43,202 bases of DNA, from IMG/VR virus record IMGVR_UViG_3300027788_000022, positions 1-43,202 of that record, one strand, 5' to 3'. The notes under the pieces are model-generated. The model searched no databases. It saw only the letters and a program-made list of their open reading frames with translations, and was not told where the DNA came from. Source of the stretch: a virus. Both the position numbers and the translations under genes were made by a program. Below are positions 24,069-39,487 of the stretch, in pieces. Each line of letters begins with the position of its first letter. Position 1 is the first letter of the stretch.

Positions 24069-24325
24069 AAAACAACAACCACATCTTGTGTTTTAATTAC
24101 GTGGTATGATTTATTGCTTATTTCAATCTTGTGACCAGCATGTCTATCGTAGTATATAAGGTCTTGTTTTTTTAAACCCATAACTTCATCTCCTACTTCT
24201 ATTACGTTGGCTTTAACGTATCTTATATCGTCTCTATGTAATCCTGCTAAAAGTAAACCACCTGTTGTCTCGGTGGTTCCTTCTTCTATTTTTTCTATTA
24301 TTAAATTTCTACCTATTGCTTTCAT
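24065..24325 (-). CDS. groES: GroES co-chaperonin (Cpn10)
   Basis: An 86-residue GroES-like protein, slightly shorter than bacterial GroES (about 95). Opening MKAIGRNLIIEKIEEG, mobile loop TTETTGGLLLAG (18-28) with the hydrophobic tripeptide LLL in place of IVL, then VKANVIEVGDE, and the C-terminal YYDRHAGHKIEISNKSYHVI followed by TQDVVVVL. It caps the GroEL ring and contacts it with the mobile loop. The start lies inside the groEL 3' end (17-base overlap) and the stop overlaps the next start as ATGA. Gene order is groEL then groES, the reverse of the usual bacterial groESL operon, which argues against recent capture of a host operon as a unit. Confidence 0.88.
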   Translation of the reverse strand: MKAIGRNLIIEKIEEGTTETTGGLLLAGLHRDDIRYVKANVIEVGDEVMGLKKQDLIYYDRHAGHKIEISNKSYHVIKTQDVVVVL

Positions 24326-25880
24326 CTATTCTCATATTATTGATTACACAATCAGTAGATAATATTGTTGATGCCACGGAAGCTGCGTTTATTAAAGCAC
24401 TTTTAGTTACCAACAAAGGATCTATAATACCTAATTCCACCATATTTACCATTTTTCCTGTAACCACATCTAATCCTTCACCTTTTGATTTTTTCAAATA
24501 ATCGGTTTTTTCAGATGTTAAAACTATACCAGCGTTTGCTAGTAAGGTGAAAAAAGGTGCCCTAATAGCTTTTAATAATATCTTTTCCCCAATAGAAATT
24601 GGTTGTAATATGTTAGAAGCATTTAATAAAGCGATTCCTCCTCCTGGTACAATGCCTTCTTTAATAGCAGCTTTTGTAGCACAAATAGCATCCTCAACTC
24701 TATCACTTTTTTCTTTTAATTCAATATCAGAATTAGCACCTATTTTAACTACAGCAACTTTAGCGCTTAATCTAGCTAATCTTAGTTCTAACCCAACTTG
24801 AATATGAGGTTTGTTTTTATTTTTTAAATCTTCTTTTATAGTAGCAATTATATCTTCAACCTCATCAGAAGCTTCATGTATCTGTATAATTGTTTGATCT
24901 TGGGTTGATGTTGATTTAACGCAGCTACCTAAATAATCTACTTGTATCGCGCTAAGGTCGTCACCTAAATCTTCATTTATAACTGTTGCCCCTGTTAGCA
25001 AGGATAGATCTCCAAAAATTTCTTTTCTTCTTAATCCAAATGCAGGCGGTTCAACAACGTTTATTTTAATGTTGCCTTTTTTCTTGTTCATAACTAAAGC
25101 AGATAGTACTCCTGCTTCAATGTCACCTATTATTAATAAGGCTTTGTTTTTTTTGATAACGTGCTCCAACACTGGTTGCACTTGTCTTATAGAATCTACT
25201 TTTGAATCCATCAATAAAACTAAAGCATTATCTAATTCTGATATGTTTTTTTCTTTATCTGTTATGAATTCTCCATGACAAAATCCTTTATGATATTCTA
25301 CACCTTCAACAATTTCAACTTCAGTAACTCCACCATCTGATGGTTCCATTGTTACAACACCTGTTTCACCAACTGCTCTAAAAGCGTCAGCTATTAATGT
25401 GCCTAATTGCTTATCATTGTTTGTAGATATAGTTGCTATATCATCTATCATATTTCCTTCTACAGGTATAGATATAGATTTTAAATAATCTATAACTTTT
25501 TCAACTCCTGATGAAATACCGTCTTTCATTTCTCTGAAACTGTCTTTAGAACTAGCGTCCTCATAAGCATGTTTCATTATTGAATGAGCTAACACCGTAG
25601 CTGTTGTAGTTCCATCACCAGCTTCTCTTACTGTTTTTCTTGCTGCTTCTTTTAATAAAGTAGCACCCATGTTTTCTACGGGGTCTCTTAATATCACTGA
25701 ATTAGCTACCGTTACACCATCTTTTGTAATAATAGGGTTTCCGTTATTGTCTTCCATGATAACACATTTACCGCTAGCTCCTAACGTGGAGCTAACAGCT
25801 TTTGTGAGTTGTTCTATTCCTTTAAACACTTTGTTTTTAGCTTCGTCTCCAAAGCTAAGATTTTTGACGATTCCGTCCAT
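24309..25880 (-). CDS. groEL: GroEL chaperonin (Cpn60), phage-encoded
   Basis: A 523-residue group I chaperonin (E. coli: 548). Essential ATPase residues are kept: D54 in TKDGV, GDGTTTATVLA with D89, and D397 in RVEDAICATKAAIKEG followed by VPGGG. Equatorial, intermediate and apical domains are all present, so it should form an active ring. The C-terminus ends INNMRIDESNR, lacking the GGM-repeat tail. By eye, apical groove residues differ from E. coli: Y203 is E (GEF) and L234 is Q (RQVQPVLEH), compatible with a matched phage GroES and a different client range. Second gene of an operon beginning at 26264; leader is A/T-rich with no Shine-Dalgarno. Confidence 0.93.
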   Translation of the reverse strand: MDGIVKNLSFGDEAKNKVFKGIEQLTKAVSSTLGASGKCVIMEDNNGNPIITKDGVTVANSVILRDPVENMGATLLKEAARKTVREAGDGTTTATVLAHSIMKHAYEDASSKDSFREMKDGISSGVEKVIDYLKSISIPVEGNMIDDIATISTNNDKQLGTLIADAFRAVGETGVVTMEPSDGGVTEVEIVEGVEYHKGFCHGEFITDKEKNISELDNALVLLMDSKVDSIRQVQPVLEHVIKKNKALLIIGDIEAGVLSALVMNKKKGNIKINVVEPPAFGLRRKEIFGDLSLLTGATVINEDLGDDLSAIQVDYLGSCVKSTSTQDQTIIQIHEASDEVEDIIATIKEDLKNKNKPHIQVGLELRLARLSAKVAVVKIGANSDIELKEKSDRVEDAICATKAAIKEGIVPGGGIALLNASNILQPISIGEKILLKAIRAPFFTLLANAGIVLTSEKTDYLKKSKGEGLDVVTGKMVNMVELGIIDPLLVTKSALINAASVASTILSTDCVINNMRIDESNR

Positions 25881-37346: not shown

Positions 37347-37558
37347 GTAAAATGAAAGAAATAGACGAAATAGCACAAGGTATTGCTGACGTCACTAAAG
37401 AATTAATGTATGATAGTATACATTGGCAAATAGCAGATCAACACGTTGAAGGTGATTCTTACAACGACTTACATGATTACGTTATGGCTAAAGCTATCGA
37501 GTATATGTATTTATCTCAAGAGAGATTTCCACACAAACAAAATACGATTTCAAATTGA
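37343..37558 (+). CDS. Small acidic hypothetical protein with promoter in its 3' end
   Basis: A 71-residue acidic helical protein (MSKMKEIDEIAQGIADVTKE; YNDLHDYVMAKAIEYMYLSQ). Its last codons encode KQNTISN, read from the upstream box of promoter copy 6; the stop TGA is the start of the GATAATAT core (TTGATAATAT). Coding and promoter function therefore share bases. Confidence 0.5.
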   Translation: MSKMKEIDEIAQGIADVTKELMYDSIHWQIADQHVEGDSYNDLHDYVMAKAIEYMYLSQERFPHKQNTISN

Positions 37559-37573
37559 TAATATAAATGTAAC
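37533..37573 (+). promoter_or_regulatory. Phage two-block promoter, copy 6
   Basis: Upstream box ACAAACAAAATAC, exactly 11 bases, then GATAATATAAATGTAAC. Overlaps the end of the previous gene. G-free leader to the start at 37590. Confidence 0.7.
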
Positions 37574-37589
37574 AAATAAATAATAAACT

Positions 37590-37778
37590 ATGTATTGTAA
37601 ATGTGGAAGTAATGTGCACGAAGTGCGAATCGAATTAGGTTATAAAACCTGTATGCCTTGTAGTACAACACAGACATATTCCTATGTGCCTATTATCGAG
37701 CACAAAACAGGTAATACAATACAAATTGTCAGCCAAGAAGTCAGTGCATCCGTGCACCGTGCTTGGCGACGTAAGTAG
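37590..37778 (+). CDS. Zinc-ribbon-type small protein
   Basis: A 62-residue protein with CKC (residues 3-5) and CMPC (21-24), separated by an ELGYK strand: a likely zinc ribbon or knuckle. The following part (IIEHKTGNTIQIVSQEVSAS) and basic C-terminus (HRAWRRK) follow a pattern I recognise from small zinc-finger proteins of marine phages. Possibly binds RNA or DNA, or modulates transcription. The stop codon lies inside the first stem of RNA 2. Confidence 0.6.
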   Translation: MYCKCGSNVHEVRIELGYKTCMPCSTTQTYSYVPIIEHKTGNTIQIVSQEVSASVHRAWRRK

Positions 37779-37958
37779 CTAGACGAGTAGCTTAATTAGA
37801 TGAGTTTGAAGCTAACCATGAAAAATAGGTTAGATGATGGATTCTCATACATAAGTGAATTGCTAGCTACTAACGGGAGTGATAAGGTAAGCAGACATTG
37901 TTGTCAAGCGAAAGCATTGTTGTCAAGTCTAACGGCGGTTCGATTCCGCCCACTTCCA
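37774..37958 (+). ncRNA. tRNA-like RNA 2 with alanine-type acceptor (tmRNA-domain-like)
   Basis: Upstream domain: stem 37774-37782 with 37863-37871 (9 bp), inside it ATGAG (37800-37804) with CTCAT (37844-37848), enclosing CTAACC (37812) with GGTTAG (37828). Then a tRNA-like domain 37875-37958: acceptor GGGAGTG with CACTTCC (7 bp, G3-U70 wobble, A73), T-arm GGCGG, loop TTCGATT, CCGCC. The 52-base interior holds no canonical D or anticodon arm but a long hairpin with a GAAA tetraloop (37893-37930), made of a 13-base repeat pair. G3-U70 with A73 is the alanyl-tRNA synthetase signal, used by tmRNA. No CCA. No tag reading frame lies inside, so it is not a normal tmRNA. Confidence 0.55.
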
Positions 37959-39413: not shown

Positions 39414-39487
39414 TGCGCGGTAGAGCAGATGGTCAGCTCGCTAGGCTCATAACCTAGAGGTCGGAGGTTCGAATCCTTCCCGCGCAC
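39414..39487 (+). tRNA. tRNA-Met (anticodon CAT)
   Basis: Complete cloverleaf, 74 bases. Acceptor TGCGCGG with CCGCGCA (7 bp), D-arm GAGC/GCTC with GG in the loop, anticodon arm CTAGG, loop CTCATAA, CCTAG, variable AGGTC, T-arm GGAGG, loop TTCGAAT, CCTTC. CCA is not encoded. U1-A72 is paired and the anticodon stem lacks three G-C pairs, so it is elongator-type Met or an Ile (lysidine) tRNA, not an initiator. Confidence 0.95.

Follow-up and report, generated by a model that had tools for sequence, protein, structure and literature searches.

Locus organisation

The stretch of DNA analysed, hereafter the window, is a virus record of 43,202 nt (IMGVR_UViG_3300027788_000022), on which all positions are counted. 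A conserved ORF of 62 amino acids, for which 163 relatives are present in IMG/VR, is followed directly on its 3' side by structured RNA modules in a hypervariable array, the last of which is usually the tRNA-like RNA described here, element E. The locus contains the following features.

37557..37566, plus strand: putative promoter-like element GATAATATAA, 5' of the ORF and the RNAs
37590..37778, plus strand: conserved 62-aa ORF, upstream of the RNA array in relatives
37774..37871, plus strand: module A, another structured RNA, made up of a conserved core GACGAGTAGCTTAATTAG..CATAAGTGAAT plus a hypervariable arm of its own
37875..37958, plus strand: element E (model R1), tRNA-like RNA including A73, probably of the CDS-less tmRNA type, with the tRNA-like domain (TLD) only
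37875..37881, plus strand: acceptor stem of E, 5' strand GGGAGTG, with G3 at 37877
37882..37891, plus strand: D-loop ATAAGGTAAG, GG present, D-stem absent
37892..37930, plus strand: variable arm replacing the anticodon arm or mRNA-like domain, closing stem AGAC/GTCT
37934..37950, plus strand: T-arm GGCGG-TTCGATT-CCGCC
37951..37958, plus strand: acceptor stem, 3' strand CACTTCC, and A73

The sequence GATAATATAA occurs seven times in the window (at 37557, 38186, 35065, 35194, 35299, 26255 and 3897) against 0.43 copies expected; with several copies lying upstream of genes, it is probably a phage promoter element. Elsewhere in the window, a phage-encoded GroEL-like chaperonin was identified (24309-25880; PHROG 5725, E 2e-139). 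Searches of deposited phages with the 600-bp window locus (blastn) and with the 62-aa ORF (tblastn) gave no match.

A sequence-only reading of this DNA had taken 37774-37958 as one RNA. The span is indeed structured (z -4.09, with none of 200 shuffles folding equally well), but it comprises two modules, hairpin RNA A (37774-37871) and element E (37875-37958). Module A is an independent hairpin RNA (z -4.84), whose 5' stem shares bases with the stop codon of the ORF before it. Among 41 distinct members the arm helix measured 5.8 bp, versus 3.4 bp with shuffled arms, and a compensatory change from GCTTA/TAAGT to GGTTA/TAACT was found.

Other modules were seen in the arrays of related phages. Module G is a second tRNA-like module with an AACTAG..CTAGTT closing stem, a T-arm with a TTCGA loop, C73, a variable arm and no G3-U70; it lies near the 62-aa ORF in L017, L006, L079, L084, L112, L155 and others. 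Many more conserved structured modules, among them CGAGGCGGCGGCATACTGGTC.., CCTCACGGGAATACACGG.. and AGAGGGGTGGCAGATATGCAG.., appear in combinatorial order and without Rfam match in the arrays of L086, L099, L111, L117, L118, L003 and L014. At L127:8760-8860 the variable arm of a module A copy holds a T-arm-like hairpin, GTGGGTTCGACTCCCAC. Rfam searches of the array modules (16 loci; 11 loci) yielded no families besides tRNA and tmRNA.

Anatomy of element E

The strands 37875-37881 and 37951-37957 form a perfect acceptor stem of 7 bp including G3-U70, followed by A73 at 37958, and the hairpin is closed by pairing of AGAC (37893-37896) with GTCT (37927-37930). This agrees with the earlier description of an 84-base 3' domain with a TTCGATT T-loop, G3-U70 and A73, in which a hairpin takes the place of the anticodon arm and a D-arm is missing; the D-loop carries GG and is unpaired. 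The GAAA cap pointed out for this hairpin is present in the 39-nt window arm, but is specific to the window cassette and not a trait of the family. The element folds with a minimum free energy of -26.8 kcal/mol (z -2.94). CCA is absent from the encoding DNA, where the bases after A73 are CTA.

The G3-U70 pair, A73, the T-arm and the missing D-stem make up a tRNA-like domain of the tmRNA type, and the mRNA-like domain with its tag frame is absent from the alignment of E to the tmRNA model. The 5' and 3' halves are contiguous and in the usual order, so E is not permuted as in the permuted/two-piece tmRNAs (RF04321). E also differs from tRNA-Ala (RF00005), having neither a D-stem nor an Ala-anticodon arm, and its arm sequence is hypervariable. 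The sole call of ARAGORN and of Rfam at gathering thresholds was a separate tRNA-Met at 39414.

Conservation and covariation

A covariance model, R1, was built from 39 E sequences, as the sequence-only reading had proposed, and used to search 80 related phage loci. The element was found in at least 57, right after the same small ORF; many of the 23 loci without a match are interrupted by a contig end or come from more distant phages. The window element scored 59.3 bits (E 1.4e-9). When the exact T-arm/acceptor string was searched, 19 viral contigs matched, 17 of them with the same RNA. Searched against 148 genomes from a single bacterial order, R1 matched only a MAG contig bearing such a phage; since the other 147 gave none, the model does not pick up ordinary tRNA-Ala.

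In the 39 aligned members, standard pairs occupied 100% of the acceptor and T-stem cells, and compensatory changes were present in all three stems. The covariation score was 0.468 versus 0.128 in shuffles. All 39 have G-U at pair 3-70 and A at base 73, whereas pair 4-69 varies between C-G, A-U, G-C and U-A. The relatedness of the members inflates counts of this kind, but the wobble pair is fixed across the family acceptors GGGAGTG, GGGCGTG, GGGGGTG and GGGTGTG, and also with GGGTTTG and GGGTCTG in other phages. The closing helix of the arm averaged 5.2 bp with its own partner versus 2.2 bp with permuted partners (maximum of 2000 permutations 2.78).

Element E thus represents a family of conserved, structured RNAs whose alanine signals do not vary among the aligned members, which supports the alanine identity first proposed for the window RNA. 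Two findings that the sequence-only reading had named as refuting did not occur: no relative carries a normal anticodon arm at this locus, and the stems do covary. E is therefore not a decayed tRNA. Relatives of another type exist outside the aligned set: two second-copy paralogs (L099:10147-10240 and L147:9932-10022) have the acceptor AGGCGTG/CACGCCT and U73, not of the alanine type, and distant relatives without alanine signals include L151 with C73. The broad pattern GATAAGGT..GGTTCGATTCC was found at 69 loci, mainly unrelated, with one divergent true member (L062).

Subtypes and homology to tmRNA

One subtype, E3 (GGGGGTGANNTGGTNTTGACG), matched the Rfam tmRNA model (RF00023) above its gathering score of 47 bits, with 65.0 bits for L154, 60.8 for L114, 60.6 for L118 and 49.0 for L077. 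These alignments run end to end (1-374) with the mRNA-like domain missing; in the L077 display, 304 model positions are absent. The E3 D-loop, TGGTTTTGAC, is nearly that of the tmRNA of Bacteroidota MAGs, CTGGTTTTGACAG. Of the tmRNA D-loop motif GG..UUCGAC, E3 has GG(U/A)UUGAC and the intermediates L120 and L121 (GGGCGYGATAAGGTATTGACC) a partial form; the TTGAC segment shared by E3 and tmRNA is lost in the window subtype, E1, and also in subtype E2. Together with L082, L120 and L121 bridge the subtypes.

The best Rfam match of the window element in a local scan was likewise tmRNA, at 31.4 bits, below gathering, and the same model gives a host tRNA-Ala 42.1 bits. Because E1 lacks UUGAC and scores below both the gathering score and tRNA-Ala, its descent from tmRNA rests on its linkage to E3 through the same locus, the intermediates and the shared model. 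The element is best described as tmRNA-TLD-like; E3 can firmly be assigned to the CDS-less tmRNAs, and E1 probably belongs with them. The tmRNA-domain architecture without tag frame, suggested earlier for the window RNA, is thereby supported through its close relatives. With part of the tmRNA D-loop lost, binding of SmpB by the window subtype is uncertain.

Copies in Streptomyces phages

A blastn search with one E3 element gave matches in Streptomyces phages of the BE cluster. The Streptomyces element, GGGTTTGATTGGTATGACGTTACGGAAAGCCGACAATGGAACCGTAGCCGCAGAGGGTTCGAATCCCTCCAAATCCA, consists of the TLD alone and carries G3-U70 and A73; 80% or more of it is matched in at least 82 Streptomyces phage records, and it is unannotated among the near-full-length matches listed. 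Streptomyces phage Paradiddles carries both a TLD-only RNA and a full tmRNA with the tag ANSKFAFALAA, about 11.5 kb apart. The two RNAs of this phage were noticed at L288:38285-38551 and in Paradiddles (MF347637) at about 86.64-86.72 kb; the unannotated TLD-only RNA lies in the phage's tRNA cluster. Another unannotated tRNA-like sequence, GGAACTG..CAGTTCC with C73 and no obvious anticodon arm, lies at L251:2331-2427 in Streptomyces phage Lululemon. A match in Erwinia phage Hena2 (33.5 bits) was judged by eye to be an ordinary tRNA and left uncounted.

Exchangeable hairpin arms

Arm sequences are hypervariable in E1 and E2. Of some 50 E arms, about 20 contain exact stretches of 17-62 nt that recur on another scaffold in a different phage. 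An exact copy of the window cassette (37896-37928) lies in module A of L089, hence on a different scaffold and in another phage. Its arm contains a 13-nt direct repeat; a tandem-repeat artefact was ruled out, the repeat being part of the cassette conserved in L089. The E3 arm is small and near-constant (GAAAGCC-N-TGGAA), and its motif is also present in the Streptomyces phages.

Proposed function and alternatives

The reading we favour, with moderate confidence, is that E is a phage-encoded CDS-less tmRNA, in which a short exchangeable hairpin replaces the mRNA-like domain and pseudoknots, and that it would compete with host tmRNA. The transcript would be trimmed by RNase P and RNase Z, receive CCA and be charged with alanine by the host AlaRS. 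In the infected cell, SmpB, EF-Tu and stalled ribosomes would then be contested between charged E and the host's tmRNA, so that trans-translation, with its tagging and proteolysis, would be dampened. A variable arm would be tolerated because SmpB, EF-Tu and AlaRS would read the acceptor, T-arm and D-loop; the arm itself may contribute a separate phage-specific activity. A search of 33 phage records turned up no phage gene for SmpB, so that the partner of E would be host SmpB. The covariation with invariant G3-U70 and A73 and the tmRNA match of relatives support a mini-tmRNA or decoy as the leading idea, already among the explanations offered for the window RNA. A phage holding both a full tmRNA and a TLD-only RNA is odd for a pure inhibitor; this pairing in a Streptomyces phage and the D-loop loss in E1 and E2 weaken the reading of E as a pure SmpB decoy and make an arm-dependent role possible.

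More tentatively, and with the balance against it, the arrays may represent a combinatorial RNA display, in which a shared pool of hairpin cassettes is presented on several conserved scaffolds within one hypervariable array, among them an alanine-chargeable, ribosome-directed mini-tmRNA, the arms diversifying in an arms race with host factors. That E would be only an alanylated scaffold, one of the interchangeable carriers E, A, B and G, with activity residing in the hairpins (as decoys of host factors or antagonists of them), seems unlikely. The cassettes that about 20 arms, the window's included, share with other scaffolds and the retained closing helix of the arms fit such a role; the near-constant small arm of E3, found in Streptomyces phages too, indicates that the E core works without cassette exchange. 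Identical hairpins at different sites and the direct repeats inside the window arm could also be expected of selfish palindromic mobile elements, tolerated in the loops of stable RNAs with E merely as landing site. This is quite improbable, the E core itself being strongly constrained and the cassettes, as far as incidental observation goes, having turned up in these arrays rather than as repeats scattered over the genomes.

An equally unlikely role as the display scaffold is that of a processing or stability signal, in which RNase P and RNase Z cut the acceptor/T-arm stack, freeing the upstream RNAs with a defined end, and charging is incidental. An acceptor/T-arm stack is a minimal RNase P substrate, and E lies no more than a few hundred bases downstream of the ORF, in most cases closing an array of other structured RNAs. 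Yet processing requires neither G3-U70 nor A73, both of which stay constant although adjacent pairs vary; in L016 no RNA modules precede E, and E3 retains a tmRNA-like D-loop. The invariant alanine signals could also serve the donation of alanine in a non-ribosomal reaction of the FemX/MurM type, which we regard as very improbable; no FemAB-family gene was present in the 23 phage records searched.

Comparison with known systems

The CDS-less tmRNA proposed here would not be the first in a phage. The sequence-only reading was aware of no published phage RNA with such a shape; this does not hold, as Mycobacterium phage DS6A carries a tmRNA reduced to the TLD according to two papers (PMC4131195; PMC11915505, citing Mao et al. 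2009). The same papers report that a molecule similar to the DS6A RNA strongly inhibits tmRNA, perhaps via titration of SmpB (PMC4131195; PMC11915505). By that published description, E is of the DS6A type in being phage-encoded, with little beyond the TLD of tmRNA and no tag frame, and the kind is thus already known. DS6A, as described there, is one phage, whereas unrelated phages share E as a large family, in which the arm is hypervariable and exchangeable and the element sits in an RNA array.

Bacterial tmRNA (RF00023) shares with E the acceptor with G3-U70, A73, a D-loop with GG but no D-stem, the T-arm and a long stem for the anticodon arm; E differs in lacking the mRNA-like domain, pseudoknots and tag, and measures 69-177 nt against about 370. 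Mitochondrial tmRNA (RF02544) and the plastid tmRNAs of about 65 bp in Mallomonadaceae (PMC11915505) have, like E, lost the tag frame. These are organellar; in mitochondria the genes are usually permuted and accompanied by an SmpB targeted to the mitochondrion, whereas E is unpermuted. The tmRNAs of Streptomyces phage Paradiddles, Chryseobacterium phage MA9V-3 and the crAss-like cr273_1 are phage borne like E, but either are full length and tagged or have been annotated as full length.

New are the large family in marine Bacteroidota-type phages, the unannotated Streptomyces copies, the subtypes and the cassette exchange; family size, Streptomyces members, subtypes and exchange were not found in openly licensed PMC papers. 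A TLD-only tmRNA as a phage attack on, or co-option of, ribosome rescue was previously known from one sequence. Cassette exchange across RNA scaffolds suggests that modular phage RNAs form a class not yet explored, and the copies in well-studied, cultivable Streptomyces phages make the decoy hypothesis directly testable.
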